A stretch of 64,000 bases of DNA from Microlunatus capsulatus (GTDB lineage Bacteria > Actinomycetota > Actinomycetes > Propionibacteriales > Propionibacteriaceae), in NCBI RefSeq assembly GCF_017876495.1, contig NZ_JAGIOB010000001.1, positions 1,922,001 through 1,986,000 on the forward strand, in the 5' to 3' direction. Shown here in pieces: positions 27,533 to 55,877 of this stretch. The translations under genes were made by a program, and so were the position numbers. Each line of letters begins with the position of its first letter. Within the stretch, counting starts at the first letter, position 1. The notes beneath the pieces were generated by a model. That model made no database searches, was not told where the DNA came from, and saw only the letters and a list, made by a program, of their open reading frames with translations.

Positions 27533-27689
27533 ATTGGTCAGGGCCATTTGATACTACCTGTCGATAGCTCCCAATGAGTTGCATAACCCCTAGCGGGAGC
27601 CGTAAATCGCGCTCGACTCGCCTCCAGACCTGTGAACTACAACTAAAATTATGGACTTTTCCTTGTGAGTAATCTGTGGTTCTTGGGGT

Positions 27690-27695
27690 TATTCT
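27690..27695 (+). promoter_or_regulatory. -10 element of the integrase gene (TATTCT)
   Basis: TATTCT lies 6 nt before ATG 27702 in an AT-rich stretch with no ribosome site. Confidence 0.5.
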
Positions 27696-27701
27696 AGGGG
27701 A

Positions 27702-35716: not shown

Positions 35717-38700
35717 CTAATCATCCCTCATATAGGTGCGTCGCGCCTGGGGATGGTCAGGAGTTGCCACATAGGCCGCGCCAACGTTCAATTTCTCGAT
35801 CTCGACACTTAGGTCCAGTCCGCTTCGCCCGCGCAGGTACCCGGAAACGGCGCGGGAGGCGGGGTGGTTGGTCCGGAAGACGATCTTAGTGCCGGCGTTG
35901 CCCAGGACGTCCTTGTGGAAGTCGTCGGCGCTCTGGCTGGCCACGATGACGCTGATCCCGTACTTTCGGCCCTCTTTCATGAGTTTCGGTAGCGTCACGT
36001 CACGTGCCATCCGATGTGCCTCGTCGAGTACGACTGCCAGCTTCAGCGTGTGGTCCTGCGGCCAGTTGAACATCTCACGGTAGATCTTGCGTAAGATGAA
36101 GGAGGCCGCGAAAAGCTGCACTTCTTCAAGCCCTAGCTGGCTCAAGTCCACGACGACGCCACCGCGATAAGCGTTGAGGAGGTCGAACGCCGTATCCGCA
36201 TCGTCGCGGAAAAGGCCAAAGTCGGTCATCGGCCGAAGCCTCTGCCGCGCGTTGCGGCCGCGAGCGTTGGCCTCGGCGATCTCCACCGCATCGCCAAATT
36301 CGCTGATGACCGGAACGCTGTCCCCCCGATTGACGCCCTGCCACCCGCGAGCCGAGTACATCGCTTGAAGAGCGTCGTAAACATGGTTGCGCTGAATCTC
36401 ACCGAGCTTGGTGACGTACGCGACGATCTCTGATATTTCCCAGGCGGTCGTGTTGATAGGTCGCCCCACACGGACATCCGCCTCGAAAGGACTGAAGGGC
36501 AAGCCCTCAGCGGCGTTCAGCACCGTGGAGCCGGACGGCGGATCCGCGGCCATGTCACCATGGAAGTCAAATACTAGCGACGGCAGGCCTTGGTCGGCGA
36601 AGCTTCGAATGATGTGCCGGGTCGTCACCGACTTGCCCTGTCCCGGGATACCGATGATGAATGCGTGAGGGCTGCCCTGGGTGCTGACGCGCCACAGCAC
36701 GTCAGAGGAGCTCGCATCAACACCCAGGACGGTCTCGACCTCGCGGGGATTCTTCGGATCGATCGGCTTTCCCGTCCCTGGACCTTCACCTCCTTCGGAA
36801 CCCGAGGGCGCAGGCGTCGCAGCCGGGAGCTCGTTCCTCGGGGCGCTCGTCCACCGCGCTCTTCGGCGCGAGTCCGGGCTAGCGCCGTCCGAGTCCGAAC
36901 CGGCGGACTGCTCGCCCTCCGTCGGCGACCTTGGATCATCCTTGGCTGCAGCTTGACTCTCGAGTTTCCAAAGGGGATCGGGCTGCTGCGTCGCATGCGC
37001 GGGCGCGGGCTGGGGTTCCGGGCGGGATGCGGGCGTCGGCGAGGCCGGATTCCCGGCGCGCCGCTGAGCCGGGAGCCCGGGTGACATCGGCGCGTCGGGT
37101 TCGGAGCGCGCGGAGGGCATCGGCAGCACGGTGGTGAAGCCGAGGTTGCCCAAGTCGTTGGCCGTTAAGACGTTTAGGGGGACCTCCCCGTACTTCTTCT
37201 TAAAACCCTCACCGCCGGCCAGACTGATGACGTACCCGCGCAGGGAGATCTCCGGGACCACCTGGCCCTCGATTACCCGATCGATGTGACGGTGAACCTC
37301 GGCAGCCCTTTCCTCCGCGATAAGGCCATGTCGGGCAGATCGGTCGGCGTAGTAATGAAGGATGCTCGCCAACCGCGCGAGCTGCAGCTTGACGTCGATG
37401 CGAGGAGGATCGTTGGCGAAAAATCGCGATTGCAGCACACGCTTGGTGTCCTGCAACTGGTCGACGATGTGGTCGGCAAGCATCTGCGGCAGGCGCGCCT
37501 CCTTGCGGGACTTCACCTCGATGCATTCGATCTTGAAGGATCGCTGACTGACGCGCACGAGCAACAGGTCACACCGATGCCCTGCTCCCTCATCGCGCGC
37601 CGCGACGCCGAAGATCTCCGGGTGGGCGTCGACAGGCACCACGATCAGCCCCTCCAGGTCCCCCCGTTCGCGAAGGTGGGCGATCACTGCTGCCAGAGCG
37701 ACCGCCTCGCGGGCATGGTTTGTGTTCTCGAGTAACCGCAGCGCCAGCCGCCCGGAGACAACGGCTAGCGTCGACAGCACCCCGCCCACGCTGTCCTGAA
37801 CCTCGGCGAGGCCGAGATCGCGCATCGCCTCCTCCAGGAGGAGTTCCACCTCGCGACGGTTCGCCGTAGTCACGGTGAGGCGCTCACCAATGCCCTCGAC
37901 GAAGTCCGGCGCGTAGTCGAGGATGTACGACTTGCCAATCGCCCCGGTGGCGCCCGACTCGAACAGGTCGACGCCGATGAACCGGTCGATGCCGATCACC
38001 CAGTCCGACCGGCCATGGGCAGCGCCGATGCGGGCCTGGTGCTCGCCATCCAGCACCACTCTCACGGCTGGGACAGTGCCGTCCGGTCCTGAGGCAAGGC
38101 GTGCCACTGCTCGTTGATGAGTTCGGTGCACGACTGGTAGTTCGCCGTCGCTGCCCCCGGCCGCGGGGCCGGTCGCCGGGACACTCTCCCAAACGAGGTC
38201 GCCGGCCGCACTGAACGATCGAGTCACAATAGGCACGAGGAGGTCCTCGAACGCCGGCCGGCGCTCGGGGTCCGCGCCGAACTCAACTTTAGGGGCGCCG
38301 ATGTCCTGAATGACGGTCAGGTGGGCGTCCTGCAGATCCGTCTTGAGTTGGTCTACAGGCCGCACGGACAGAGACAGCGGCGGCGTCAGGTGGGTGGTCT
38401 TGCGGGCGAGTTCGCGCCGCCGCAGGGATTGCTGCAGGCCTGAGAGAGCGGCAACGGGGTGGGTGTAGGACGGGCTGTCAGAGTAGGCCAAGATCTCCAA
38501 CCGCCGCGGGTCCTCCTCGTCCTCCTCCTCGCTAACCTGTACGGGTTCGCGAAGAGCGCCAGCGAGCAGCTCACCGGAACCTGGGTTCACCGCGAGCACC
38601 CGCAGCGTGCCGCCGGGGTTGTGCGCGGCCTCGTAAGCCTGGATCCGCTCCGCCACCATCTGCGACGACGCGCGCATGGTGGAACCGGCCCGCTGAAGCT

Positions 38701-40741
38701 CGAGCACCGAGGCCACGGACTCGGCAGCCGCTTCGCTGTCGACGTTGCTAGGGACCAAGTAAAGGCCGGAGCCGAAAGTCAGCTCTTCGGTATACACCGC
38801 GAGCGCGCCGTCAACCGGAACGGTGAACGGCAGGTTGGCGGGTACGACCTGCGTCACGAGGCCGGCGTCGACCATGTGCGCGCGCGCGCCGCGCGGTGTC
38901 AGCTCGGTCAGCTGGTGGGCCCAGTCCCGCAGGACGCGGTCATGAGTCGCCGCCCACACCGCACGCAGCGGGTGCGTTGGGAGGACGACGACCGCACGAA
39001 TGACCGTGTTGCTACGCAGGACATCGATTGAGACGGTGTCCATACGCAGCAGGTCGTCAAGTTGTTGGCCGGGGAGTTCCAGCGCGCGCTTGTAGGTCGC
39101 GCCGTACGCCACGGCGAGGTCGCGCAGCACATCATCCCAGGCGGCCGACTCGACCGTGTCGCGGTGCGGCGTCCCCGCCAGAGCGGACAGGAACTCAGCG
39201 CGCGCTCGCCGGAGCGCGGTGGGGAGCGGCAGTTCGACCTGTTGAACCCGGTCAAGGTCGAGCGGGGTGCCGTGGGATCCGCTAGCGCGTAAGTGGACAG
39301 GCCGATCGGGCCGGGCAGTAGCCGCTCGCTGCCAGCTGATCAGCGGGGCACAGATCCGGACTTGGACCGCGCGCTTGTTGCCCAACCGCAGGGAGAAGAC
39401 CTGCCCGTCCAGGTCCCAGGAGACCAGATCCTCGGATAGGTCATCGAGACCGTCGAGAGCGGCGCGGACCACGGCCTCGGGGACACTCGCGGCTGCGGTC
39501 CGTCGGGTCTTCGTCTCACCCACCTGAGCGCCGACGATCTGGAACTCCTGGCTGTCCGCGGCCGCGAGCTCGCCTGAGGTGAGGTTGACTGACTCCCCGT
39601 GCTCCCCGATCGCACGGACGCTCACTACGAAGCGGGTGCCGTCGGTCAGGGAGTCCTCATCGAGGGCAACCTTCACAGTGCCCTGGCGGCGAGCGCCAGC
39701 GATCACGGTCAAGGCGAGTGGCTCGGTGTCATCGGTGCGCAGATCGTTCGGTGGCACCACGGACAACTCCCACGAGGCGACTACGGCCACGTTGGCGGGT
39801 GCCGTCCTCCACTTGACTGTGACCGACCCGACGCCACCCTCGGGGACCTCTAGGACCAACTGGCCGTCAGCTCCCTGCTTGAGCTTGCTCCATTTCTCGA
39901 CCGTGCCGGCCGCCCTCGTGAAGGGGACGACCTCGAGCTCGTCGATGTCCTCGGCGATGTCTTCAGCTAGGACCCACTTGTCGAAGGTGAGCTCGGGGAA
40001 GTGCTCGGCAATTGCTTGAGTCCAAAGACGCGGGTTGGCAAGCTGAGCTCCGCGCTGCTCGCAGAACCGGCGCAGAGGGCCCCGCCACGGCCCATCCTGA
40101 AGTCCCGCGACGGTGAACCGCTCGTCCATCGCAGCCGAGGGACGAGTCGGGCGGCTGATCGCCTGCACCGCCAGCCGGTTCCGCTCGACGCGGTCGCCCG
40201 GGTGTTCGGCGTGGTCGGGCACCAGCCCGACCATCCACAGGTGCCGCCCGAAAGTGGCCTCACTGGGCTCGACGCAGAGCTGGGCCAAGAATTCCGTCCA
40301 GGCCTCTTGACGCTGAGCACGGAGCCAGCGGCGGTTACGGGTAGCCAGCTCGCGGACGCCCTGGTCGCCGATGCGGTTAAGCAGCAGTCGCTCGACATGG
40401 TGGTAAGCGGCCAGGACAGGGATGCGTCGGAAGGAGTTATCGAGGGAGCTGGCGGCGTGGCCCTCTCCTGCTGGCACCACCAGGACGCACGGTTGTCGCT
40501 TGCGATTACGGATCTCGATCGCACGCTCTGCGGCGATGTCCAGGTTCCCTTGAGGCCTGGCCCGGAGCACGTGAATGGCGGCCGCCGGCAGCTTCTGAGA
40601 GAGGGCAGATGCAAGGTCGGGCGCTAGCGCCGTGTTCACATCGTCGACGCGCACGCAGTGTCCCGCCTCGGCCTGGTCGAGTATCGAAGCGATGTACTCA
40701 GCGAGGGTGGACGTGAGCACCCCATTGGCGGACGCCGTCAC
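35717..40741 (-). CDS. Large DptH-like protein: PD-(D/E)XK plus HerA/FtsK-type ATPase
   Basis: A 1674-aa protein, last gene of cassette A; its ATG overlaps the previous stop by 4 nt. The N-terminal half recalls DptH/BrxC-like proteins (AIEIRNRKRQPCVLVVPAGE). Near residues 1045-1080 there is a PD-(D/E)XK-like site: HRCDLLLVRVSQRSFKIECI and EVKSRKE, with Asp, Glu and Lys placed normally. A disordered Pro/Ser linker (about 1190-1320) leads to a HerA-type ATPase: Walker A IIGIPGQGKSVTTRH (about 1365), DFHGDMA, Walker B LAVVLDEAHR (about 1570), and VIVASQSADDF sensor. Length and domain order match DptH, the ATPase of phosphorothioate-dependent restriction, but no modification genes are present. 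A role as DNA-translocating nuclease is inferred. Confidence 0.75.
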   Translation of the reverse strand: MTASANGVLTSTLAEYIASILDQAEAGHCVRVDDVNTALAPDLASALSQKLPAAAIHVLRARPQGNLDIAAERAIEIRNRKRQPCVLVVPAGEGHAASSLDNSFRRIPVLAAYHHVERLLLNRIGDQGVRELATRNRRWLRAQRQEAWTEFLAQLCVEPSEATFGRHLWMVGLVPDHAEHPGDRVERNRLAVQAISRPTRPSAAMDERFTVAGLQDGPWRGPLRRFCEQRGAQLANPRLWTQAIAEHFPELTFDKWVLAEDIAEDIDELEVVPFTRAAGTVEKWSKLKQGADGQLVLEVPEGGVGSVTVKWRTAPANVAVVASWELSVVPPNDLRTDDTEPLALTVIAGARRQGTVKVALDEDSLTDGTRFVVSVRAIGEHGESVNLTSGELAAADSQEFQIVGAQVGETKTRRTAAASVPEAVVRAALDGLDDLSEDLVSWDLDGQVFSLRLGNKRAVQVRICAPLISWQRAATARPDRPVHLRASGSHGTPLDLDRVQQVELPLPTALRRARAEFLSALAGTPHRDTVESAAWDDVLRDLAVAYGATYKRALELPGQQLDDLLRMDTVSIDVLRSNTVIRAVVVLPTHPLRAVWAATHDRVLRDWAHQLTELTPRGARAHMVDAGLVTQVVPANLPFTVPVDGALAVYTEELTFGSGLYLVPSNVDSEAAAESVASVLELQRAGSTMRASSQMVAERIQAYEAAHNPGGTLRVLAVNPGSGELLAGALREPVQVSEEEDEEDPRRLEILAYSDSPSYTHPVAALSGLQQSLRRRELARKTTHLTPPLSLSVRPVDQLKTDLQDAHLTVIQDIGAPKVEFGADPERRPAFEDLLVPIVTRSFSAAGDLVWESVPATGPAAGGSDGELPVVHRTHQRAVARLASGPDGTVPAVRVVLDGEHQARIGAAHGRSDWVIGIDRFIGVDLFESGATGAIGKSYILDYAPDFVEGIGERLTVTTANRREVELLLEEAMRDLGLAEVQDSVGGVLSTLAVVSGRLALRLLENTNHAREAVALAAVIAHLRERGDLEGLIVVPVDAHPEIFGVAARDEGAGHRCDLLLVRVSQRSFKIECIEVKSRKEARLPQMLADHIVDQLQDTKRVLQSRFFANDPPRIDVKLQLARLASILHYYADRSARHGLIAEERAAEVHRHIDRVIEGQVVPEISLRGYVISLAGGEGFKKKYGEVPLNVLTANDLGNLGFTTVLPMPSARSEPDAPMSPGLPAQRRAGNPASPTPASRPEPQPAPAHATQQPDPLWKLESQAAAKDDPRSPTEGEQSAGSDSDGASPDSRRRARWTSAPRNELPAATPAPSGSEGGEGPGTGKPIDPKNPREVETVLGVDASSSDVLWRVSTQGSPHAFIIGIPGQGKSVTTRHIIRSFADQGLPSLVFDFHGDMAADPPSGSTVLNAAEGLPFSPFEADVRVGRPINTTAWEISEIVAYVTKLGEIQRNHVYDALQAMYSARGWQGVNRGDSVPVISEFGDAVEIAEANARGRNARQRLRPMTDFGLFRDDADTAFDLLNAYRGGVVVDLSQLGLEEVQLFAASFILRKIYREMFNWPQDHTLKLAVVLDEAHRMARDVTLPKLMKEGRKYGISVIVASQSADDFHKDVLGNAGTKIVFRTNHPASRAVSGYLRGRSGLDLSVEIEKLNVGAAYVATPDHPQARRTYMRDD

Positions 40742-42351
40742 TTGACCGACTCCCTGGGTCGGGTCACGAACTGGGCATTGAAGTCGTCGGAGAGTCCTTC
40801 GAAACAGCCAAGCAGCTTCATGCGCTGGGTAAAGGCGGACAAATTCGCCGCCGCGCCGACACGGGCGTCGGCGGAGTCGAGGTCCGCCGGGGGTGAGGCG
40901 ATGAGGATGCCGAAGCGTCGCTCAAGTCGGGCCAGAACCTCTCGGATGGGCAGTCTGGTCGTCGTTCGCTGTCCGCTAGCGTCGACGAAGATGATGCATA
41001 GGAGCGCGACCAGCGCCTCGTCGGACAGCGAGTAGCGCCAGCTTCCGCGGGAACGCAGGTCGCCCTTGAGGACCCCGTACGGCTTCTTGATACCTCCGGT
41101 GGAGTGGAACCACTTGACCTGGTTTTCCAGACCGCGCCTGCGGAGCCCCTCGACAAGGATCGCGGTGAGTTGATCGGCGGCGGTGAGGCCCCCGGACGCC
41201 CTCACCTCTGCGATGTAAGCGCGGCCCTCGTCCTCCGGCGCGAGCGCGGCCTCGACCGCGCTGACCTGCATTTGTAGGGCCATCTGCATCATGCCGTCGT
41301 CCCTCAAGGCGGCAAGCGCGGCGAGCCGGGACGCCGCAGTCTCACCCAGATCCGGCTTGGTCGGTAGTAGCACGACGGCTTCTTGTAGCGAGCGAAGCAG
41401 CAGTCGGTCGCCGAAGAACGTGCGCATTACCTCGAGGTCACGCTGGACTGACATGCGGGATAACTCGTCGGAAGGGTGACCGCGCAGGCGCACGAAATCG
41501 AAGTACTGCGCACAGGGGTTTTCGGATGCAGGCAGCTCGGCCCCGCTGGCGAGCAGGGACCGCACGGCGTGCGCAGTAACCAGAGGTAGCTGAAACAGGC
41601 GCAGGCTCAGCAGGGTTGAGAGGTGCATATACGCCTCGGCAACCGGCAGCTTCGGGCCGTAAAACGTGAGGAATTCGAGGAGGTCCCGGCTCAGGGGATC
41701 GACGGCGAGAGGTACGGGCGGGTCGAGCGGCTCAAGGTCCCGGTTATGCGCCTCGTTGCCCTCAAACTGCTCGATGAACCGGAGGGCGAGAAGAGTGTCG
41801 ATGTCCACCTCGGACCCGTCGTAGGTCGGATTCGTCGACGGAAACGGCCCTAGCTCGACGCCTCGGCCGAAGGTGCGCAGGAATAGGCCCTGGATCACGG
41901 CGGACTCGTTGTCGTCCCCACGAGCCTTGAGGGTACGCGCCATTGCCTTGTAGGCGAGGGCGTCCGCCCGACGGTTGCGGGACTGGCTCCGCGGTAGTCC
42001 GCTGCGATAGGCCGCAATGGTAAGTGGGCGGAGGTAGCCCATCTGAACAATGTCGCGTCGCAGCCCTGCCGTCTCCTGAACCAAGACGGAGGCGCGAATC
42101 CACCCGTCGAGGACTTCGAGCCCCCGGTCGCTTTCAACCCCGATGAGGTGCGGGGACCGCTGCAACTTCGCGAGGTAGCCGTCATAGTCCTTCGTGTCCA
42201 CCCGCGAACCGGACACTCGGCCCCGCTTGACGGCCCGCTCGAGGATCTTGGTCATCATCCGGTCGATGTCGGTGTCGTTGAGTTCGACGTTGATGACGTT
42301 CTCGGTTACAAGCGAGTTCTGCGTAAGTCCCTTGGGGATCGCGAAGGTCAC
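40738..42351 (-). CDS. Uncharacterised 537-aa protein of cassette A (DptG position)
   Basis: A soluble, mostly helical protein with no motif I recognise. It begins MTFAIPKGLTQNSLVTENVI and has conserved-looking stretches GYLRPLTIAAYRSGLPRSQS, FLTFYGPKLPVAEAYMHL and LVALLCIIFVDASGQRTTTR. It overlaps both neighbours by 4 nt (ATGA), so it must be made in ratio with them. It sits between an ATPase of DptF type and one of DptH type, the place of dptG in dptFGH; size is also similar. That is the only basis for a DptG-like label. Confidence 0.6.
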   Translation of the reverse strand: MTFAIPKGLTQNSLVTENVINVELNDTDIDRMMTKILERAVKRGRVSGSRVDTKDYDGYLAKLQRSPHLIGVESDRGLEVLDGWIRASVLVQETAGLRRDIVQMGYLRPLTIAAYRSGLPRSQSRNRRADALAYKAMARTLKARGDDNESAVIQGLFLRTFGRGVELGPFPSTNPTYDGSEVDIDTLLALRFIEQFEGNEAHNRDLEPLDPPVPLAVDPLSRDLLEFLTFYGPKLPVAEAYMHLSTLLSLRLFQLPLVTAHAVRSLLASGAELPASENPCAQYFDFVRLRGHPSDELSRMSVQRDLEVMRTFFGDRLLLRSLQEAVVLLPTKPDLGETAASRLAALAALRDDGMMQMALQMQVSAVEAALAPEDEGRAYIAEVRASGGLTAADQLTAILVEGLRRRGLENQVKWFHSTGGIKKPYGVLKGDLRSRGSWRYSLSDEALVALLCIIFVDASGQRTTTRLPIREVLARLERRFGILIASPPADLDSADARVGAAANLSAFTQRMKLLGCFEGLSDDFNAQFVTRPRESVK

Positions 42352-45300
42352 GAGCGCTCGCCTCGGTCGACCGCGAACGCGATCTCGACGCCTCGCCTGG
42401 TCGCTGTGGTCACGGAGCCCGACGAGTCCACTATGTGTGCAGCTTTTGCTGGGTGGCGGCTCAACTGTCCGACGAAGGCATCGATTTCCTGGCGGATAGC
42501 GTCGGACGCAGAATCATCGACAAGCTCGCCGTCGGCGGCGCGCAGGATCATCTCGGCCGTATCGAGATTGAGCCTCAGCGTGTGCGCACCGGATTTGTGG
42601 CGCAGCTCGAGTAGGTCTGCCATCGTCTCCACGTAGGGATGAGTTGGGTCGGCGACATGCACGGTGAAGGCCTCGCTCTCGATCGCGTGGAGGATCGCCC
42701 AGCTGGAGTCGCCGGCACCGACACCAAAGGCCAGCCCGGAGGAGCGGTAGCCCGGCGCCCCGAGGAGCCTGCTGATGCCGAGCAGGAGACGATCACGCGT
42801 GGCGATCGCATCCCCCCCGTTGAGCATCCCGGTGAACTCGGTCAAGTGGCGGTACACCCTGACATCGCTGCGCGTGATGTCGTCGTCGACGTGGTGGCCG
42901 AAGTAAACCGAGCGGGCGGCGCTCTCCGTGCTGCGCAGGAACGCCATCCCCTCGGCCGTGTTGGACTGCCGCCGCGCACGGTCCACGCTCGGACTCGAGA
43001 CGAGCGCGGGATCGAGGTCGCTCCACTCGTCGATTAGGTAGTCGTTGCTGTCCGTCGCGAAGGCCAGGTCATGTGCAAGGGCGTCAGACATCAGGCTGGC
43101 GTTCCTTCCCTCCAGGATCAGCTGGTGGACGTCGACGCAGTCACGATCGCCGGTGACGACCCAGGCGGCCGCGGACCGGACGTCGCGGAAAGTTGCCCGG
43201 CGCCGGCGCCGCAGGTGGCTGACTAGCATTAGCTCACTGAAGCCACCCGCGCCCGGCCCATTCATGCTCTCCCGGTTGGCGAGAATCGGGCAAGCTGTCC
43301 GCGCTGCGCAGGAAGAGCAGACGCCCCAGAGCTCGGGTCGGAGCAGTGAGGCGAGCGCTTGATCGGCCAGACCGGACTCGTCCGTCGACGCGAGCGAGCG
43401 GCGTTTGAGGTCAACGAGCACCACCCGCGATTTACCCGGGCCCTTCCCCGCGATCTGGTCCTGGATCTCAAACCACCAGTCCTCGTAGCGCTCACTGTTG
43501 TCTTCGAAAAACTGGTGCAAGCGCCCGTCATTGACCGCGATGAGCGCCGTGGCCGGCCCTGCTGTCCCGTTGCGGACTGGCTCGAGCGCCTGCTTGACAA
43601 GCTCGTCAGAGGTCAGCAAGCCGTGTGCCTCGCTGGCATCGAAAACCGCGTGGAAGGTGCGATCAGCCAGCTTTAGGCTCCATCCCGCCTCGTCCTCGTG
43701 AAGCGTCTCCGCGCCACGCTCTCTCAGCCTCTGGCCGAGCTGCACTAGCAGTGACGTCTTTCCGTCGCCCGGGTTGCCACTGAGGAGGACCACATCGAGG
43801 TCGCCGTCTTCCACTCTCGGAAGCAGGTTCTGATCAAGGCGCGTGGGGACGTACGTCGCGAGGGCAAACGCGTCGTCGAGCCCGCGATTGCCAGCGTTGC
43901 CGATCGAGCTCGCGCGGTACAAGCGCCTGATCTTCGCGACGTAGGGGTTCACGCGAAACTCGTCCTCGCCGTCACGTGGCGTGTCGGGCTCCGGGGTGAT
44001 GCGTGTGCTCCGCACGAGCTCAAGGAGGGCTGCTGCCGACGGTGGACGCTCGACCGGGGCCGGTCTGGCCGCCGCCAGGAAGCTGTCCAGGAGCCGCGAA
44101 CCCCCTGGCCCCCAGGCCTCCTTCTCCGCGTCGGTCGGGGGAACCAGCTCGAAGCTGCCGGACGCCATTGAGCTGATCTGGCGCCCCAGCATGGCGTAGG
44201 CCATGGTCGCGGCGAAGCCGAACAGGTCGCTGGCCACAGTTGCGGGCTGCCCTGCGCTGAGCTCAGGCGCCGCGAACCGGGGCGTTTGACCTGCCGGCCG
44301 CTGGCCGGCACGTACCGTCAGCCCGAAGTCAATCAGCTTCGCGCTGCTGCCGTCCGGGGCTGCAATCACATTCGAGGGCGTGACGTCGCCGTGCACCCGG
44401 TCGTGGCTGTGGATGTAATCCAAAGCCTTGAGAACGCAGACGGCGATTTCAAGCAGCTGCTCAACCGAAAAGGCTTGCCCCTCCTCAGCGAGGCTCTCGC
44501 CGTCGACATACTCCGAGACAAGGTAGTGGGGCGTCTCGTTGACGTGAATGTCGTGGACGCTTCCGCAGTAGTCATAATGCAGCCCGTGTGCCGACTGAAA
44601 CTCGGTGCGCACGTTGTCCGGCAGGTCTTGGTGGAACTGCTTAAGCACCATCGGCAGCTCGCGCTGCCGGTCGTAAACCCTCCACGACGTCGCAAACCCT
44701 CCGCGCCCGAGCTTGCGGACGATCTCGTAGCGGTCTGCGATGAGTCCGCCCACCTCGAACACCCCCAAGGGGGTGGGTACCGGTTCCGCCACTGGCGCGG
44801 CCGGCAACAGCTTGTCAGCCAGTTCTCCGGCGTGAGGTCGGTCCTGAGAGGCGCCGGACAAGGCTCGAAGCATTGGCTGCACCCACGGATACGCGGTGAT
44901 TAAACGCTCGCCGATCTCCTCCCGCGTTTGCTCTATGATGTCCCTGCCAAGCAGCCAGTAGCCGAGGCACAGCGCCAGACTGAAAACGTCCGACGCTCGG
45001 TTGGCTAGCGCCAGACTGCTCGCGCATTCGGGGGCCCGGTAGTCCTCGCTGATGTCGCCGTCATCAGCCCAGAGTGCGATCGACTCGTCACCCTCCACTC
45101 GAGCGAGGTTGAGATCGCTAAACATGACTCGACGCTTCTGGTGCAGCCAGACCCGTTTGGGGTGGAGCGCCCGGTGCACAAGTCCGGCGTCGTGAATGTC
45201 TTGGAGCGCGCGAAAGGCGTCGATGGTGACTGCGCGTGCGATCTGGTCGTCCAGTCGCCCACCCGGGCGTTGCGGAACCTCCTCCTGCACGGAAGCATGC

Positions 45301-46133
45301 AGCGTCGTACCGCCCCTAGGGGGCACAACCGGCACGACGAAGAGGCTGCCGGAATCATCCTTGAAGGGCGGGAACGCACGCCAAGTCCGGCCGAGGTCCG
45401 CAACCCGGTTAACGGCAACGTACTCGCGCCGGAGGAACTCTCCGGGATCACCGTGAGCGCCGAACGCGGCCGAGGGATAGCACTTCAGCACCAGCCGCTC
45501 GCCGGTCGAGTCCGTCGCGGACCACGCCTGTTCCTGTCCAGCGCTGGCTAGTCGAGACTCCAGGGTGTAGCCACCAAGGGTCGGCTTGCCGTAGGGCTTG
45601 GGCAGGTCGTCTAGATAGGTGATCACTGGGCGACGGGCGACGCCCAGACCCGACCCAGGGAACTGCTCGTCGAGGGCCACGAGCGCGTCCGCGGCCTCCG
45701 TGAGCGCCCAGATGTGCTCCCGCTCATCGTGATTGCGCCCACGTAGGATCTGCAGCCTCGGATGGCTCAGGATCACCGCTGGTACAACGCGGCGGGCGGA
45801 ACCCAGGTTCTTGTAGCCGTCGGCTCGCTGCTTGAGGGTGCCGGCCACGATCCGGGCCACCTGACCCACGCGGTTGAGCGGATTCGGTCTGGCGTCCGAG
45901 CCGACATACCAGTTGTTGTCATCGACGACGACTGTGGGTCCCCAGGCCTTCTCCTCGATGACAAAGACAAGAGACTTGCCGACCACCACGAGGTCGGCAT
46001 CGTCACGGTTCGGGCCCGGCAACTTACGGCCGGCGAAGATGACCCAGTCGCTCGGAAGAGTTGCAGCGAGGTGCTCCGCCGTCCGCTGCTCACCGGGCCC
46101 GACGTATTCGCCCTTCACTCGTAGATCAGCCAT
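42348..46133 (-). CDS. NERD - pseudokinase - Ser/Thr kinase - P-loop ATPase fusion
   Basis: A 1261-aa multidomain protein. (1) NERD-type domain, residues about 5-115: GEQRTAEHLAATLPSDWVIF, DADLVVVGKSLVFVIEEKAW. (2) Kinase-like domain about 180-420 without catalytic residues: HRALHPKRV in place of HRDLKPxN and SDLNLAR in place of DFG. (3) Second kinase about 465-680, apparently active: LGRGGFATSW, VLKQF, VHGDVTPSNV, IDFGL, APEL. (4) ATPase about 780-1261: LLSGNPGDGKTSLLVQL, a Cys cluster CSSCAARTACPI (about 944). Part 4 resembles DptF in motif and context; parts 1-3 resemble PglW of BREX type 2. ATG 46133 overlaps the helicase stop (TGATG). The frame opens to 46280, but that lies inside the helicase gene. 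Confidence 0.8.
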   Translation of the reverse strand: MADLRVKGEYVGPGEQRTAEHLAATLPSDWVIFAGRKLPGPNRDDADLVVVGKSLVFVIEEKAWGPTVVVDDNNWYVGSDARPNPLNRVGQVARIVAGTLKQRADGYKNLGSARRVVPAVILSHPRLQILRGRNHDEREHIWALTEAADALVALDEQFPGSGLGVARRPVITYLDDLPKPYGKPTLGGYTLESRLASAGQEQAWSATDSTGERLVLKCYPSAAFGAHGDPGEFLRREYVAVNRVADLGRTWRAFPPFKDDSGSLFVVPVVPPRGGTTLHASVQEEVPQRPGGRLDDQIARAVTIDAFRALQDIHDAGLVHRALHPKRVWLHQKRRVMFSDLNLARVEGDESIALWADDGDISEDYRAPECASSLALANRASDVFSLALCLGYWLLGRDIIEQTREEIGERLITAYPWVQPMLRALSGASQDRPHAGELADKLLPAAPVAEPVPTPLGVFEVGGLIADRYEIVRKLGRGGFATSWRVYDRQRELPMVLKQFHQDLPDNVRTEFQSAHGLHYDYCGSVHDIHVNETPHYLVSEYVDGESLAEEGQAFSVEQLLEIAVCVLKALDYIHSHDRVHGDVTPSNVIAAPDGSSAKLIDFGLTVRAGQRPAGQTPRFAAPELSAGQPATVASDLFGFAATMAYAMLGRQISSMASGSFELVPPTDAEKEAWGPGGSRLLDSFLAAARPAPVERPPSAAALLELVRSTRITPEPDTPRDGEDEFRVNPYVAKIRRLYRASSIGNAGNRGLDDAFALATYVPTRLDQNLLPRVEDGDLDVVLLSGNPGDGKTSLLVQLGQRLRERGAETLHEDEAGWSLKLADRTFHAVFDASEAHGLLTSDELVKQALEPVRNGTAGPATALIAVNDGRLHQFFEDNSERYEDWWFEIQDQIAGKGPGKSRVVLVDLKRRSLASTDESGLADQALASLLRPELWGVCSSCAARTACPILANRESMNGPGAGGFSELMLVSHLRRRRRATFRDVRSAAAWVVTGDRDCVDVHQLILEGRNASLMSDALAHDLAFATDSNDYLIDEWSDLDPALVSSPSVDRARRQSNTAEGMAFLRSTESAARSVYFGHHVDDDITRSDVRVYRHLTEFTGMLNGGDAIATRDRLLLGISRLLGAPGYRSSGLAFGVGAGDSSWAILHAIESEAFTVHVADPTHPYVETMADLLELRHKSGAHTLRLNLDTAEMILRAADGELVDDSASDAIRQEIDAFVGQLSRHPAKAAHIVDSSGSVTTATRRGVEIAFAVDRGERS

Positions 46134-47695
46134 CAATGCACCTCGGGGTAGTCGTCCGGCCAGACCCACGGCTGGACCAAACTGTCTGGCAGCGAACGAA
46201 TCCGGTCGAGATAGACGTTCTCGCGTGAGTAGGTGAGGACAAGCTGGTCTTTGGCCCGCGTCGATCCGACGTAGCCGCACCGACCCTCGCGACCGGCGCG
46301 ATCGCTCCCGTCGGGATCTGCGAGGTGTTCCATGCCAACGAGGAAGACGACGTCAAACTCGTAGCCCTTGGACGAGTGCACGGTCATTACCTTGACCGAC
46401 GACTCCGACAAGTCGAATTCCTCGGCGTGGTTCGGGTACACCGCCCTGACCGGGATCCCTGCCTTCTTGAGGGGGTACATGACCTTGCCAATGTCCCACT
46501 TGCGTGTCACGAGCACCGCGATGTCCTGCGGATGGCGCTCCTCCTCGGCAAGCAGCAGCTCGATGTCCCGAGCTACGGCTGCTCCGAGCTCCGACACGTT
46601 CTCGGCCCACACGAGGTCCACGGGCCGACCCTCGGCAGCGTCCGCCCTGCCATCCACGTTCATGGACTGGTCCAGCGCAGAGGTCACCTCGAGGATCTGC
46701 CTCGTCGACCGATAGGGCCGATGCAGCGCGGCCTCCTCCACATTGTGCCCAGCGAGAGCGATGTAGCTATGAGCGTCGCGGTAGAGCGCCTGCTTAGGGT
46801 CACCCGCGACGGTCAGCCCACCCCGCCCAGGCCGAACAGTCGCAAGGACCAGGCGGGTCCATGGGTCCATGAAATCTTGCCATTCGTCGACTAGGACTGC
46901 GTCATACACCGGCTTCACGTGCGCCAACGCCTGCGCCACGTTCTGCTCAGCCCACTCCTCATTGTCTAGGGAGACGCGGACTCTGAGCCGACTGGTCAGC
47001 TGCCCGAATGTGCAGACGGTGATGTTGGCGTGGCCCCAGACCAACGCCTCGAGGTAGGGGACGAGCAGGCGGTTGTAGCAGAGCAGCACGATGCGCCAAT
47101 TAGGATCCTGGGCCGCTAGCCACTTGGCCCGGGCGGCCAGGACCAGGGTCTTGCCGCTGCCCGGGGGGCCCGTGATGTGCAAGACGTCGTCCACATGCCT
47201 GCAGGCGATGTCGCTCTGGGCTGCGTCCAACACCAGCCGCTCCACGGCCCGCGCCGCCGCGCCCTCGTCTGACATTGGATGCCGCCGCGGAACGTCAACG
47301 CTCAAACGAGGCGCAAGATAGGCCGCCACCGCCTTGACGGCCCCGTCATCCATGCCGTTGGGCGAGAGCTGTCTGACGAACACACCCGCAGCCGCGTCCT
47401 CTGGGGTTGAGATTACATCGCTCGAGGCGCCAGCGTCAGGGGCCACAATGATTCGTTGGGCGCGGACCCGCGCGACTTGCGGAACGTCGTTGCGCAACCT
47501 CGCGAGCTTTCGGTTGAGCTCGACCAGGGCGCCATCCTCGTGATCGACGAGGTCGAGCACCAAGAGTCCCAAACCACCACCCGCGGCGACCACGGTCGGC
47601 AGATCTTCGGACTTCGGCCAGAAGACATCGAAGCCGGCTTCGGTCAGGTGCGTCGTGAGCGCGCCTTCGAGTTCCGACGCCCCAGCATTGGGCAT
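46133..47695 (-). CDS. SF1 (UvrD/Rep-like) helicase, first gene of cassette A
   Basis: A 520-aa superfamily-1 DNA helicase. Motif I is ITGPPGSGKTLVLAAR (about 177), motif II AVLVDEWQDF (about 272), motif III AGDPKQALYR, motif IV region HRPYRSTRQI, motif V MTVHSSKGYEFDVVFLVG and motif VI YVGSTRAKDQLVLTY (about 480). The N-terminal 160 residues (LTTHLTEAGFDVFWPKSEDL) look like a degenerate restriction-endonuclease-type fold but lack clear catalytic residues. GGAGGAG lies 6 nt before ATG 47695; a start 30 nt upstream has no ribosome site. It leads the four-gene operon and overlaps the next gene by 1 nt. Confidence 0.88.
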   Translation of the reverse strand: MPNAGASELEGALTTHLTEAGFDVFWPKSEDLPTVVAAGGGLGLLVLDLVDHEDGALVELNRKLARLRNDVPQVARVRAQRIIVAPDAGASSDVISTPEDAAAGVFVRQLSPNGMDDGAVKAVAAYLAPRLSVDVPRRHPMSDEGAAARAVERLVLDAAQSDIACRHVDDVLHITGPPGSGKTLVLAARAKWLAAQDPNWRIVLLCYNRLLVPYLEALVWGHANITVCTFGQLTSRLRVRVSLDNEEWAEQNVAQALAHVKPVYDAVLVDEWQDFMDPWTRLVLATVRPGRGGLTVAGDPKQALYRDAHSYIALAGHNVEEAALHRPYRSTRQILEVTSALDQSMNVDGRADAAEGRPVDLVWAENVSELGAAVARDIELLLAEEERHPQDIAVLVTRKWDIGKVMYPLKKAGIPVRAVYPNHAEEFDLSESSVKVMTVHSSKGYEFDVVFLVGMEHLADPDGSDRAGREGRCGYVGSTRAKDQLVLTYSRENVYLDRIRSLPDSLVQPWVWPDDYPEVH

Positions 47696-48219
47696 GGCCT
47701 GCTCCTCCAAACCGTCTCTGAGCACTCAGTCCAACGATGAGCAAAGATCCTTCGCGGGAGATCTTGCCATCAGGCGGGCAGGCGCGCGTGCCTTGTATAC
47801 ATTCCGGTGGACTTTCTCGCACCTCAGCGGGCCGTCGACGGACCTCAGGGAGATCGCTCCCCAGGCCCCCGTTGCGGCAGGGGGAGCAGCAGGCCAGCTC
47901 GTGACCCGGCGCGATGTCGGCCAGCAAGGGGCCGGGCGTCAGGCAGTCGTCGCGGGCGAATCGCGAGCGCGGGGAAGCCGCACCTGGCGCCCGACCCGAT
48001 GCGCCTCGGCGGGAAGTCGGACGACGGCGCCCGTCGTGACAGGAAGGTCCGGCCCAGCGTCCGCAGGGCTCTAGAGCCGCTCCGTCGTTTCCTCAGAACT
48101 GCCCATGGAGAACCAAGTACCGAGCAACTTTCCGGACGAACTTCGTGGAACGTGCCCCAATCGACCCGGGTTTGGTTAGTCTTCCTCAGCACGGCCTGAC
48201 CCCACCCCCGAGGAGGTCG
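47696..48219. promoter_or_regulatory. Divergent promoter region of cassettes A and B
   Basis: The 524-bp gap has no gene; its open frames lack starts with ribosome sites. On the minus strand TATACA, within the palindrome TGTATACA (47794-47801), could be the -10 for cassette A, about 100 nt before its start. On the plus strand TAGTCT (48177-48182) could be the -10 for cassette B, 38 nt before its ATG. No -35 is convincing and no regulator gene is adjacent. Confidence 0.4.
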
Positions 48220-49413
48220 ATGTCTTTCGTCGCCTGGCTGGACCACTCAACTGAGGACGAGCGCCGTGTGCGCGAGATGATTCGGTCGTTCGACCAGCCA
48301 GAGACCCAGGACGCTCTCGGCTTCGGTCAGGTCCGCGACGCGTATGGCGACCTCCTCTTCCCGGGAACCTCCACACTGCACACCCGGGCAAAGTACTTGC
48401 TTTTCATCCCTTGGTGCTCGATCGCAGCAGCCGGACGCGGATACACCGGGGAACGCCTGGAACGAGCCAGCCGCGACAACGAACGTCGACTAATCCAGAC
48501 TCTGAGCTCGATACCCGGCGTCCATGGCCTGATCGGCGGTCGACGAGGGTGGACTGTTCGCAATCTGCCCTCGGGGACCTACCGCACCGCCCTCGAGCGC
48601 TGGCACATTCAAGGCGATAACGACCAGGACATTCCGTCGCCTGACGACGGCGAGTTGGTCGTCGCCACCCACGGCTGGCACCGCCGGCTTCCGGCGCCAC
48701 CGCTCGACTTCCCCGAACGGGCTCCTGGGGCCTTCGCGCTCACCTACGGCGAGGCCGAATATCTCCAGGGCCGGCTGCTGAGCATCGACGGTCCGCCGTC
48801 GCTCTTCGCCTACCTCGCCGACCACTGCGGCCGCGCGTTGGAGGCGCCACGCCTCTGGAAAGAACCAATTGTCGAACAAGCGCCGCCTCACATCAGGGAC
48901 GATGTCCAATTGGCTGAGACGTTCTCCACGATCGCCCACGGCGCCAACCTGCTCTACAACTACCTCGTCGCGCGGAAGTACGAGCAGGACGGCTGGACGA
49001 CAGTCGAGAACCCGGTCGAACGCTACGAGGCGCGGCTCGACGACTGGGCGGTCAAACTCCGGGAGCTGGGACCGTCCTGGCCGTCATGGAGAGACATCCG
49101 GACGAGAGCGGCCGACGAGAACGGCAATGTCCTGCGCAACGTGAGTCTAAACGCCTTCGCCGAGGCTTGGTTCTCGCTCGTGGCGCAGGAGGAACCGCAC
49201 GACCTCTGGCGCTCAGATGCCGCGCAGACGCTCGTACGAAGCCGGGAGGTCTCGATCAAGAGACTCCAATCTCGCTTCACCAACCCGACCATGCTGTCTC
49301 GGTGGGGCGGTTCGAGCGGTGCCGGAGCCTTCGAGTTCCGCTGGAGTCAGGCCCGGCAGCTGCTGAACGACGTCATCGCCGGCTTGAGGAGCGATGACGT
49401 TGCTGTCGCCTGA
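48220..49413 (+). CDS. DUF6361 family protein, first gene of cassette B
   Basis: A 397-aa protein matching DUF6361: MSFVAWLDHSTEDERRVREM, then FGQVRDAYGDLLFPGTSTLH and TRAKYLLFIPWCSIAAAG. The rest is helical, with LFAYLADHCGRALEAP and LLYNYLVARKY. DUF6361 genes commonly sit next to phospholipase-D-like and helicase genes, as here. No catalytic residues can be named. GAGGAGG lies about 3-4 nt before the ATG at 48220; a frame start 75 nt upstream is unsupported. The next gene starts 20 nt before its stop. Confidence 0.85.
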   Translation: MSFVAWLDHSTEDERRVREMIRSFDQPETQDALGFGQVRDAYGDLLFPGTSTLHTRAKYLLFIPWCSIAAAGRGYTGERLERASRDNERRLIQTLSSIPGVHGLIGGRRGWTVRNLPSGTYRTALERWHIQGDNDQDIPSPDDGELVVATHGWHRRLPAPPLDFPERAPGAFALTYGEAEYLQGRLLSIDGPPSLFAYLADHCGRALEAPRLWKEPIVEQAPPHIRDDVQLAETFSTIAHGANLLYNYLVARKYEQDGWTTVENPVERYEARLDDWAVKLRELGPSWPSWRDIRTRAADENGNVLRNVSLNAFAEAWFSLVAQEEPHDLWRSDAAQTLVRSREVSIKRLQSRFTNPTMLSRWGGSSGAGAFEFRWSQARQLLNDVIAGLRSDDVAVA

Positions 49414-51136
49414 CGACCGATCGGCGTTGATCAGCGCACTCCGGCCTCCGCTGGGGATGGTGCTGGGCCAAGCCGTGGCCACGACCTTCACGCTCGACCT
49501 CGAGACGGCGATGAGCATTCCGATCGCATTTGCCCGCGGTCGGAGCCAGGACCTGAACGACCCGATCTCCGTGATGGAGGCGCTGCGCGACTGCCGGGAC
49601 CGGATTGACATCTTCTGCCAAGCGGGAGCCATCAGGCCACCGACGACCCAGTCGACGCTGTTCGCGTTCTTGGAGCCGATGATCACCCAGGTCTGGCAGC
49701 GGTCGAGGTTGTTCCACCCCAAGATTTGGCTCCTGCGGTACGACGGTCCGCTGGGCTCCCGCATGCGACTGCTGGTGCTCACGCGCAACCTGACGGCCGA
49801 CCGTGCATGGGACCTCGCGGTGTCCCTCGACGGGGAGGTTGACCCGAAGCAGCGCCGCGACCGTTCTCTCCCGGAGCTGGTGAAGTGGGCGCTCAGCCAC
49901 ACGAAGGGCCCGGCACTCGGCCCACGGCGGCAGGAGAGGCTGCAGGGTCTCTTGGGCGACGCGGCTCGCACGGCTTGGGAGAAGCCGGCCGACGCGTGGG
50001 AGGTCACCCTGCACGCCCTCGGCGTCGGGCTGCCGAACACACTCAAGTTGGCTGGGACTCGGGCCCTCGTGGTCTCGCCGTTCATCCAGGCCGACGGTCT
50101 CGACCTGATCAAGGCGCGCACCCACGTCGTCGTGTCCCGACCCGAGGAGCTTGACCGGCTCGACGACGCGGCCCTGAGCCGGATCGATGCCCGAGTGCTC
50201 AACGAGGCCGCCTGGCTGTCCGAGGGCGGAGAAGACAACCAGCTGACCGGCCTCCACGCGAAGGCCTACGTGATCGAGTACGACCGACGAGCATGGAACA
50301 TCCTGGGTTCGCCGAACGCCACACGCCCGGGCCTGGTCGGCGACCGGCGAGCGAACATCGAGTTCGCCGTGACCCTCGAAGGGTCCAAGAGGGATTTCGG
50401 CCTCGACCGCTGGCTGAGCGACGACAGCCTGGGGCACCTCCTGGTGGACTACGACAGACAGTCGCCGAGTGCTCTCGACGAGACGTCCGAGGCGCTGGAG
50501 AGCACGCTTAGCAGTTTGGCGGGCGTCTCCTTCAGCGCTCGAGCGGCTGCCGACGGAGACGCCTGGTCGGAGCTCGTTTGGCCCGAGGAGTCGCTGCTCT
50601 ACCCGTCGACGCAGCAGGTAGGAGTCGAGCTCCTGACCACCAGGGGGCGCCGACAAGCCTTGTCGAACGGTTCCGTCGATGCTGTCTGCTTCGCGTCCCT
50701 CACGATTCCCGAGGTGACCCCGTTCCTGATTCTCACAGTGGAGCAGGACGGGCAGTCGGCATCAGCCTGCCTGCGCGCGACGCTCCTGGACGACGTACCA
50801 GAGCGGCTCGACCACGTCCTGATGGGCCAGGTCGACACCGCCGAGAAGTTCCTGCGCTGGCTCCTGATGCTGCTCGCCGAAGATCCCGGGGCCGGCTTTC
50901 TCGTGCCCTTGGACGAGGAGCGTTCGGGCGGCTCATGGCTCGTCCAGGCACAGCAGCGCGGCCTGTTCGAGGCCATGGTCACGGGTCTCGCCGACCACCC
51001 GGAGCAGCTTCATTTGATCGAGCGCTTCGTCGACAAGGTCCTCAGCTCCCCGGACAACCGCCAGGTCCTGCCCGAGGGCTTCGTCGAGCTGTGGCAGGTC
51101 GTGCGCACTGCCCTTGCGCGAGGCACGGCAGCATGA
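49394..51136 (+). CDS. Phospholipase D-like nuclease-family protein
   Basis: A 580-aa protein with two PLD half-sites: LFHPKIWLLRY with LVLTRNLT (His/Lys about residue 108), and GLHAKAYVIEY with NILGSPNAT (about 287-306). These are HxK...N versions of the HKD motif used by PLD nucleases and helicase-linked PLDs such as DISARM DrmC. The C-terminal 200 residues are beta-rich then helical with no motif. It overlaps DUF6361 by 20 nt and the helicase by 4 nt. It probably acts with the SNF2-like helicase next to it, as PLD-helicase pairs do elsewhere. Confidence 0.88.
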   Translation: MTLLSPDDRSALISALRPPLGMVLGQAVATTFTLDLETAMSIPIAFARGRSQDLNDPISVMEALRDCRDRIDIFCQAGAIRPPTTQSTLFAFLEPMITQVWQRSRLFHPKIWLLRYDGPLGSRMRLLVLTRNLTADRAWDLAVSLDGEVDPKQRRDRSLPELVKWALSHTKGPALGPRRQERLQGLLGDAARTAWEKPADAWEVTLHALGVGLPNTLKLAGTRALVVSPFIQADGLDLIKARTHVVVSRPEELDRLDDAALSRIDARVLNEAAWLSEGGEDNQLTGLHAKAYVIEYDRRAWNILGSPNATRPGLVGDRRANIEFAVTLEGSKRDFGLDRWLSDDSLGHLLVDYDRQSPSALDETSEALESTLSSLAGVSFSARAAADGDAWSELVWPEESLLYPSTQQVGVELLTTRGRRQALSNGSVDAVCFASLTIPEVTPFLILTVEQDGQSASACLRATLLDDVPERLDHVLMGQVDTAEKFLRWLLMLLAEDPGAGFLVPLDEERSGGSWLVQAQQRGLFEAMVTGLADHPEQLHLIERFVDKVLSSPDNRQVLPEGFVELWQVVRTALARGTAA

Positions 51137-54100
51137 CGCACTTCGACGCTGCGCCTATCCTCGACGGGCTGAAGGACTTCCAGCGCGCCACTGTCGAGCA
51201 CGTCGTTGACCGCTTCTACGGCGACTTCCCGACGAAGCGCTTTCTCGTTGCCGACGAGACGGGCCTCGGCAAGTCTGTCGTGGCCCGTGGAGTGGTCGCA
51301 CGGGTCATCGAGCGACTGCAGGACGATTCTTCCGTCGACCGGATCGACATCGTGTACGTCTGTTCAAACTTCGACATCGCCCGCCAGAACCTGAAGCGGC
51401 TGGACGTCACTGGGGGGTCAGCAACGGTTTCGACCACGCGGCTCACGCTGCTGGCGCGCGACGCAAGGACCTTCCAAGGTGCCGCAGATGTGGCGGCGAC
51501 GCCGGTCAACGTCATCGCGTTCACGCCCGGCACTTCGTTCAGCAGCGGGTGGGCGACTGGTCACGCGGAAGAACGAGCACTGCTGTACGTCATGCTCGCG
51601 GAAGCCTGTCGGCTCGGGCAGCAGCAGAAGAACTACGCGGTCACCCTCCTCCGGGCGACAGCCACCAGGAAAGGGTTCGAAGGGGCCATAGCCAACACCC
51701 GACGCGCACTCGACGGTCCGCCCGACGAGGGCATCTCCAACGCGTTCTGGAGCGAGGTGCAGCGACGCGGCCTGGACGTGCGCTTCCTTGACCTGCTCCA
51801 GCTCTTGATCGACAAGCGCGCGAAGGACGTGTCCAACGCACTGTGGCCTGAGGTGCGCCGGCTGATCAGCGATCTGCGGCAGTGCCTCGCTCGCGCGTCG
51901 GTCGAACGACTTGAACCCGATTTGGTGATATTCGATGAGTTCCAGCGGTTCCGGCACCTGATGGATCCTGAGCAGGGCGGGGAGAGCGCCGAGCTTGCGG
52001 AGGCCCTATACGACCATCGCGACACTCGCCTACTGCTGCTGTCGGCGACGCCGTACAAGCCCTTCACCAGCGTCGAAGAGAGCTCAGCCGGCGAGGATCA
52101 CTACAAGGACTTCCGTCAGACGCTGGGCTTCCTGGCGCAGGACGAGGACTGGGATCGCGAGGTCGACCGCGCCTTGGCCGACTACCGCCGTTCGCTGCTG
52201 ACGGGCGATGACGCTGATGGGCCTCCAGCCCGGGAGCGCGTGCGTCGGCTGCTCCTCCAGGTGATGAGCCGTACGGAGCGGCCGACGCTGGGTGAGGTGG
52301 GCGAGGCTACTGGCGTCCCTCGGCACGACGGCATGCTGAGAGAGCACATGGTGGCGGCCGAGGACCTCTTGGCTGACGACCTCGTCTCTTACGTGGCCAT
52401 GCGTCAGCTTGCCACGACCATCGATGCCCACATGTCGCTCGACTACTGGAAGTCCGCGCCCTACTTTCTGAACTTCGCCGAGAGCTACCAGATCGGGCAG
52501 CGCATCAAGGAGCGGCTGAAGCAACGCGATGTCGGCGAGCTGCTTTCTAGTCTGAGCCTGATCGATCGGCATGCCGTCGGACGATTTGACGACATCGGAC
52601 TCGGCAACGCACGCCTGCGGGCCGTTGCTGCCCAAACCGTTGACGCGGGCTGGTGGAAGCTGCTCTGGATGCCGCCCTCGATGCCATACGTCCAACTCGA
52701 GGAGCCGTTCGGTGCCCTGCGTGAGTCGGGCATCACCAAGCGGCTCGTGTTCTCCGGGTGGAACGCCACCCCGGCCGCTGTGGCTTCGTTGATCAGCTAC
52801 GAGGTCGAACGGCATCTGATGGGTGGACGTGGGCTTGAAAACGATCCGCTAGCGATCCGCAACGCCACCCGCCGTCTCGCCCTACGGTTCGACCAACCCC
52901 GGCCCAACCAGACGGCGATCGCGTTGTTCTGGCCGCAGCCGGAGCTCGCCGAGCTCTGCGACCCGCTCGTGTTGGCACGATCCAGCCCGGGGTTCCTCTC
53001 GAGCACCGCGGCGACCGCATACGCCGAGTCACTGATCGCAGAGAGGGTCAAGGGGAACGATGGAGAGGCGGGTGCATCGGCAGCCGAGCTCGCTCTGCGT
53101 TGGCCACTCCGTCGACAGCCCGACGCAGGCAGCCTGCCCGGAGGCGACGATTCCGTGGATGACGATACCGACCTCCGCGGCTGGGACCGAGCCATGGAGG
53201 AGACGTTCCAGCTTGAACGACGGCCCGCGTCTGCGGCGGACGTAGAGCGCGAAAGTCGCGACCTGGCGGCGTTGGCGCTCTTCGCCCCGGGCAACGCTGC
53301 TTGGCGGGCGGTCAGCCGGCTCCTCGGTGAAAGCGACTCCGTCACCCTCGAAGGCAGGTGGCGAGCTGCGCTGACGATCGCGACGGGGCTCCGGACACTC
53401 TTTCAGCGTCCCGAGTCCGTCCTAGTCATCGAGCAGGGCGTCGGGGAGAACGACGCTGGAGACAGCTACTGGCGCCAGGTGCTCGCTTACTGCGCAGCCG
53501 GCGATCTGCAGGCTGTCCTCGACGAGTACCTGCACCACCTCAGGAGCGAGAAGCCGAGCGGACCGCTCGACGACGAGACGCTCCTCCAGCTGGCGACGTC
53601 GGCCTCAGACGTCCTGTCGCTTCGGGCTGTAACTCTCCGCGCCTTCGACCCGCACGCCCCGGCGGACCCGATCACGCTGCGCTGCCGGTTCGCTCTGCGC
53701 TACGGCGCCCGCGAGGGAACCGGGACGGACCAGGTGCGGGCGAGCGAGGTGCGTGCCGCATTCAACAGCCCCTTCTGGCCCTTCGTCATGGCTACGACCA
53801 GCGCTGGCCAGGAAGGTATTGACTTTCACTGGTGGTGCTCGGCCGTCATCCACTGGAATACCCCGAGCAACCCCGTCGACTTCGAGCAGCGCGAAGGCCG
53901 AGTGCACCGCTTCGGTGGCCACGCGGTCCGACGAAACGTGGCCGCCGCGCATCGCCACGACGTTCTGGCGTCGAGTGACGCTGACCCGTGGCGCGCCGCC
54001 TACGACGCGGCGCTGGCAGCCTCCGGGGACCTGGGAGAGTTCTCGCCTTACTGGGTTTTCCCGGGCGCGGCCAAGATCGAACGCCACGTGCTCCCGTATC

Positions 54101-55838: not shown

Positions 55839-55877
55839 GTGCTAGAAGTCAACACACGGTCAATCGAAAGGAGCGAG

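Follow-up and report, generated by a model that had tools for sequence, protein, structure and literature searches.

DndFGH, DptFGH and SspFGH have, like the operon described below, the gene order F-G-H and an architecture in which F bears a P-loop core with an ND motif and H combines a methyltransferase-like part, a nuclease motif and a HerA ATPase. According to Rakesh, Aravind and Krishnan (2024; PMC10853773), DndF may also bear a NERD domain and tandem inactive and active kinases, and DndFGH is standalone; it was recovered in about 1,800 taxa (1798, elsewhere 1728), and all eight dnd genes occur together in 316. A 2026 paper by two of the same authors (PMC12839542) assigns the N-terminal arrangement of this DndF subset to PglW of BREX type 2 as well, the C-terminal half of PglW being of triple winged helix-turn-helix (wHTH)/iSTAND type. 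The third related system is MADS (methylation-associated defence system), where Mad6-Mad7-Mad8 (a kinase-ATPase F, a G and an H with a HerA end) are accompanied by mad1 to mad5, encoding a helix-turn-helix (HTH) protein, a methyltransferase, an ATPase, a small protein and a specificity subunit. PMC12904381 lists MADS among systems whose restriction mechanism is unknown. A four-gene operon, helD-F-G-H, is described here in a 64,000-nucleotide stretch of the Microlunatus capsulatus genome (contig NZ_JAGIOB010000001.1, positions 1,922,001 to 1,986,000), hereafter called the window. Judged by its sequence, the operon appears to be a variant of a kind already described, namely kinase-fused DndFGH or MADS-type, with a helicase as regular fourth partner; the kinase fusion and the notion of a standalone complex are both in print.

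The four genes succeed each other with overlaps on the minus strand, from 47695 to 35717, in the order helD, F, G, H. The helD/F junction reads TGATG, and both the F/G and the G/H junctions read GTGA. The corresponding open reading frames (ORFs 46133-47725, 42348-46280, 40738-42351 and 35717-40741, all minus) lie where the initial annotation had placed four coupled genes, and Pfam recovered the domains that it had named: a UvrD-type superfamily 1 (SF1) helicase, NERD, two kinase stretches, a P-loop ATPase and HerA/DUF87. Its size for H (1674 aa) agrees with the ORF, and its PD-(D/E)XK call with a motif at residues 1057-1077. The relatedness to dptFGH that it had proposed also stands: the F core resembles SspF/DndF, the C-terminus of G resembles SspG/DndG and H resembles DndH. 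The same is true of the PglW-likeness of the F N-terminus. The annotation went astray in its comparison set, which omitted MADS, although no other known set of three genes is closer than Mad6-7-8. The hybrid of Dpt restriction and BREX type 2/PglW logic that it considered is not new in kind, because DndF proteins fused to NERD and tandem kinases, and DndFGH as a standalone set, have already been published (PMC10853773, PMC12839542); with the counts of DndFGH and of complete dnd sets given above, the lack of dnd genes is no oddity either. Compared with a complete eight-gene MADS locus, F, G and H prove homologous to Mad6-7-8; their homology to DndF-G-H is more distant. In the literature covered, outside which lie most subscription papers and preprints, no paper was found that identifies Mad6-8 as homologues of DndFGH.

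F (42348..46133, minus) is a Mad6/DndF-like multidomain protein of 1261 aa, counted from the likely ATG at 46133 in an ORF that opens at 46280. Its N-terminal part has the same order of NERD, dead kinase and active kinase as PglW and as the kinase-fused DndF of PMC10853773. The NERD nuclease domain (45768..46094, minus; Pfam NERD 1.5e-10) contains an EEK motif, of which the K, and an E or D two positions ahead of it, are kept in all 16 helD-linked rows of the alignment, the window included. An inactive kinase copy follows at approximately 44766..45569 (minus), supported by Pfam, PADLOC, motifs and alignment; its HRD is changed to HRA, and the aspartate is likewise missing from 16/16 helD-linked rows. 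The next domain is an active-looking Ser/Thr kinase (44169..44729, minus; Pkinase 5.7e-35) with K547, HGD and DFG, and its active residues K, D, N and D are kept in the same 16 rows. Among rows not linked to helD, 15 of 54 lack the HGD and DFG aspartates; the two identified, L114 and L128 (loci are numbered with L), are from Bacillota, and their F N-termini are long, yet without the kinase residues. The DndF-type core (42351..43958, minus) was delimited by an SspF match and the F-core alignment and displays a P-loop (GNPGDGKT), an NDGR motif and a Cys cluster. The PADLOC matches of F reflect this composition: PD-T4-6 (5.1e-39) and mad6 (3.9e-36) are followed by PglW (3.3e-21) and SspF (1.9e-16, residues 822-1055). 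The best stretches of two PglW models end at residues 454 and 656, whereas the C-terminal half matches SspF; F and PglW probably differ in their C-terminal halves.

G (40738..42351, minus; 537 aa) is Mad7/DndG-like by profile homology. Pfam assigns it no family, and PADLOC matches are modest (mad7 weakly at 9.6e-6, SspG at 5.4e-4). Aligned as a family, G and Mad7-type G proteins correspond over nearly their full length (26 versus 8 sequences, hhalign E 2.6e-39), while the likeness to DptG-type G proteins (dptG of Priestia and seven others) is restricted to the C-terminal region (108 columns, probability 93.9, E 1.6e-7). The AlphaFold model is confident (pLDDT 91.2).

H (35717..40741, minus) is Mad8/DndH-like according to PADLOC and tblastn, the PADLOC matches to DndH (3.5e-24) and mad8 (9.3e-21) both being confined to its C-terminus. 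Residues 530-1200 (37142..39154, minus) comprise, by AlphaFold/Foldseek and motifs, a predicted methyltransferase-like fold followed by a PD-(D/E)XK-type motif (CDLLLV ... EVK). This part was modelled with a pLDDT of 83.7 and gave eight S-adenosylmethionine methyltransferase matches in Foldseek at E <=0.001. The catalytic motif [DNS]PP[YFW] was not found in H, and a fold of this sort without it fits, without proving, the dead methyltransferase within DndH reported in PMC10853773. The nuclease ExK is kept in the window and in 31/32 aligned relatives. The C-terminal HerA/FtsK-type ATPase (35759..36757, minus) has Walker A, Walker B and ASQ motifs and is recognized by Pfam HerA/DUF87, PADLOC and structures. 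Among the eight structural matches of H, 8wiv (1e-7), HerA 4d2i (1.9e-5) and DptH 7es4 (3.3e-5) are the first three, DptH standing behind two other HerA proteins.

The helD gene (46133..47695, minus, with its ATG at 47695) encodes an SF1 (UvrD-like) helicase of ~520 aa, identified by Pfam and PADLOC, with intact GSGKT and DEWQD motifs; its N-terminal ~150 aa have no family among the matches listed. The SF1 core is shared with GajB and with the NERD-UvrD defence helicases of PADLOC. Unlike GajB systems, however, the operon has no GajA-type partner among its four genes, and the helD match leaves the N-terminal region of C3a187 (NERD+UvrD) uncovered. Within the literature coverage given above, we found no paper that adds an SF1 helicase to kinase-fused DndFGH or that has helD as a regular member of such sets.

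The conservation of the set was followed in other genomes. A plasmid of Piscinibacter gummiphilus carries a full MADS locus, whose eight genes pair individually with PADLOC mad1 to mad8, and tblastn matches its Mad6 and Mad8 to F (215 bits) and H (172 bits, residues 6-1158) of the window at ~25 % identity. A scan of genome contigs gave 74 related loci, with a readable F frame in 73 (fragment L113 has none). F-G-H recurs in this order in loci of several phyla, which argues that the gene order is not due to chance. At 15/73 loci (L063-L072, L075, L082, L090, L109 and L087, the last cut by a contig end), helD precedes F in the same orientation at a distance of no more than 500 bases; L064/L065 and L082/L090 are near copies. 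Fourteen of these loci belong to Actinomycetota, the exception being L087 (Planctomycetaceae). Several other loci start at or just before F, so that genes upstream of F are not visible there. When neighbours were clustered over 54 loci (49 of the 74 and five plasmid loci), helD was the sole widely shared gene besides F, G and H. The next clusters had four loci each and represented a single genus (Thermogemmatispora), a DrmD-like helicase or a MADS-type methyltransferase. This clustering is a lower bound because the ORF caller missed genes, such as the helicase homologue of L074 revealed by tblastn. In a class-wide sample (two candidates scored per genome), matches reaching the F core were present in 14/393 genomes, the window's included, and helD was found by tblastn in the stretches fetched from 2 of the 13 others. 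The viral collection yielded three loci, all of a distant Bacillota type by F similarity.

A tree of the F core, with 77 rows after omission of 19/96 as duplicates or fragments and rooted at the midpoint only, pairs the window with Nocardioides caldifontis (100/100). Both fall in an actinobacterial clade of 23 rows (100/100), 13 of them with helD; the ten without comprise nine Pseudonocardiaceae and one Micromonosporaceae. The MADS-type rows form a separate clade (100/96) of nine, seven of which have a specificity-gene match and four of these also a mad2 match.

The search for a means of marking self DNA covered the operon, its surroundings and the genome. The absence of modification genes noted in the initial annotation holds for the operon, none of mad1 to mad5 being among its four genes, but not for the surroundings, where a neighbouring divergent cluster holds a type III Mod (60103-62160); ten neighbouring ORFs gave Zac, type III Mod, SIR2 and HTH matches among others. 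As to dnd and ssp genes elsewhere in the genome, models of DndC (TIGR03183) and DndD (TIGR03185) had no match in the single 4,409,943-base contig, while matches in 5 and 9 of 14 controls were all below the cut-off. PF13182, which we take to be SspB, also had none, but is uninformative, as every control lacked a match too. PglZ (PF08665) of BREX type 2 was not found in the genome either, with two of the 14 controls positive. The operon thus differs from DndFGH/DptFGH in its added helD, in the lack of dndC and dndD matches in the genome and in a likeness of G restricted to the C-terminus; from MADS it differs in its extra helicase, its separate clade and the absence of mad1 to mad5. DndC was also missing from all 14 actinobacterial genomes with a helD locus, the same model scoring 660 bits in one other genome searched; among 24 genomes with F-G-H, it was above the cut-off in one (L080, Pseudonocardia) and below it in another (L099). 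Two further searches were uninformative: the generic mad2 profile, since it matches 50 places in the genome and all 14 controls, and one full-length DndH model, which had no match in its search of this genome and missed even H (2.8e-5 against the H protein itself). The fetched flanks, which reached ~8 kb ahead of F and 3 kb past H, were compared with 12 methyltransferases, some of which came from the loci themselves; this panel matched at 4/15 helD loci (type IIG at L063 and L064, BREX PglX at L065, mad2-like at L082) versus 5/34 others.

Taken together, these features make it fairly probable, in our judgement, that helD-F-G-H restricts invaders as an operon of the kinase-fused DndFGH kind, with kinship to the Mad6-7-8 effector and with the SF1 helicase as a regular fourth subunit. 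The standalone DndFGH model in print (PMC10853773) supports this reading. The sequence shows the coupling of the four genes, their domains, active-site motifs that are intact and a conserved set; for its mode of action we infer that G and the methyltransferase-like part of H would bind DNA, that the HerA part of H would move along or pump it, and that the PD-(D/E)XK domain would cut, with helD unwinding or processing the product. Within F, the P-loop core may sense a nucleotide or an invader signal and the kinase may gate the complex, NERD and kinase together providing a possible suicidal back-up. Since the operon has no mark-making gene, self DNA is probably spared by such an activation gate and not by a dedicated methyl or phosphorothioate mark. 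A more specific proposal, which we consider less likely than not, is that helD-F-G-H is self-contained and needs no self mark, the Ser/Thr kinase and the nucleotide-sensing P-loop licensing a translocating nuclease while the helicase provides or detects a state of DNA found only in invaders (e.g. single-stranded or replicating DNA).

Among the other explanations, one would split restriction from modification: the operon would supply only the restriction activity, and methylation by the system next to it, in this case the type III Mod, would mark self DNA. That Mod lies in the same island, in a plus-strand cluster outside the operon that encodes an unassigned 924-aa protein (U924), a helicase and Mod (55839..62160), and behind it an intact frame for Res (864 aa) starts at 62157 and extends past the window end. 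In MADS, moreover, the same F-G-H set is accompanied by a methyltransferase and a specificity gene, and a methyltransferase occurs near the four helD loci listed above. However, the methyltransferases near helD loci differ in kind (IIG, BREX PglX, mad2-like, type III), and 11/15 helD loci have no panel methyltransferase in the fetched flank. Homologues of U924 and its helicase were examined in six places, namely five other genomes and one Rhodococcus plasmid. Mod and Res come next in two of these genomes and on the plasmid, where the 34 to 43 kb examined contain no F match; across all six, the fetched stretches span 17 to 43 kb and have no F match. The adjacent Mod was rejected as the operon's own mark maker, because it is paired with a Res and both also occur together elsewhere with no F-G-H in the stretch examined. 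At L074, homologues of both the helicase and U924 adjoin F-G-H, which leaves a loose link between F-G-H and the U924 cluster open. Overall, a borrowed methyl mark of this sort appears unlikely. Less likely still is a MADS in decay, from which mad1 to mad5 have disappeared and only an idle effector is left: homology to Mad6-7-8 would be expected from it, but the separation of the helD and MADS-type clades under the midpoint root and the kept active-site residues indicate that the operon is not a recent wreck of MADS. We give about as little credence to the view that the helicase and F-G-H are separate genes brought side by side by chance in a defence island. Many F-G-H loci lack helD, including 11 Pseudonocardiaceae loci seen, and yet 15 loci from several families have it next to F in the same orientation, and in the window the two genes overlap; on the F-core tree the helD label needs 4 changes versus 13.1 when shuffled.

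Several observations weigh against a kinase-fused DndFGH with helicase. G gave no tblastn match in the Piscinibacter MADS locus, and Foldseek placed no PDB structure beside its model at E 0.001, so that the triple wHTH described for DndG is not confirmed in G, confident as the model is. A profile of eight close F cores reaches the annotated DptF of Priestia weakly (E 1.6e-4), the borders of the dead kinase are approximate only, and the methyltransferase-like fold suggested for H leans on low TM-scores (maximum 0.37 by target length). The genome of L080, whose F-G-H has no adjacent helD, has DndC. Finally, because four helD loci and the window have a methyltransferase within reach, a borrowed mark is possible.

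The surroundings of the operon look like an acquired defence island of ~40 kb, on account of a dip in G+C content, from ~0.76 to ~0.66 between window ~26000 and ~65000 (L165 to ~4000) with a rise past the window end, and of a gene at 27676-28887 that matches the central domain of phage integrases. Just downstream of H on the opposite strand, a SIR2-domain protein with PADLOC ThsA matches (33629-35197, plus) stands beside an HTH gene. On the other side, ZacA, ZacB and ZacC (48145..54309, plus; PADLOC 1.4e-101, 5.4e-142 and 0) form a neighbouring system outside the operon; a literature search on them, and on mad2, mad6 or mad8 with phage, found nothing relevant. U924 itself (55839-58613) has no Pfam or PADLOC match (E 0.1) and, together with an SF1 helicase, precedes type III Mod-Res; its relatives include L156, L158 and L164, and Zac matches lie near its homologues in 3/5 other genomes (ZacC only in one of them). 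The U924 cluster is possibly an extended type III system.

Further observations concern distant relatives. At Bacillota loci (L114, L118, L128 and others) a relative of the L114/L127 SfsA-domain proteins lies up- or downstream of F-G-H; 12 of the SfsA-associated rows form one F-tree clade, with L127 (core-only F) outside it. On a Bacteroides plasmid (L034, 27592-28257), a PP2C phosphatase, a possible counterpart of the kinase, follows a MADS-like kinase operon. The genes beside F-G-H at L047 (DruE-like, DrmD-like, type IIG, helicase and kinase) make up an array reminiscent of DISARM and Druantia. Homologues of these genes occur at L045, and L037 has counterparts of the DruE-like gene and the helicase.

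Three literatures are tied together by the parts common to the MADS effector (Mad6-7-8), kinase-fused DndFGH and PglW. The same effector occurs with a methylation module in MADS and without one in the operon of the helD clade, which offers a natural comparison for how complexes of the DndFGH type tell self from foreign DNA, and the helicase would be worth including when such systems are cloned.

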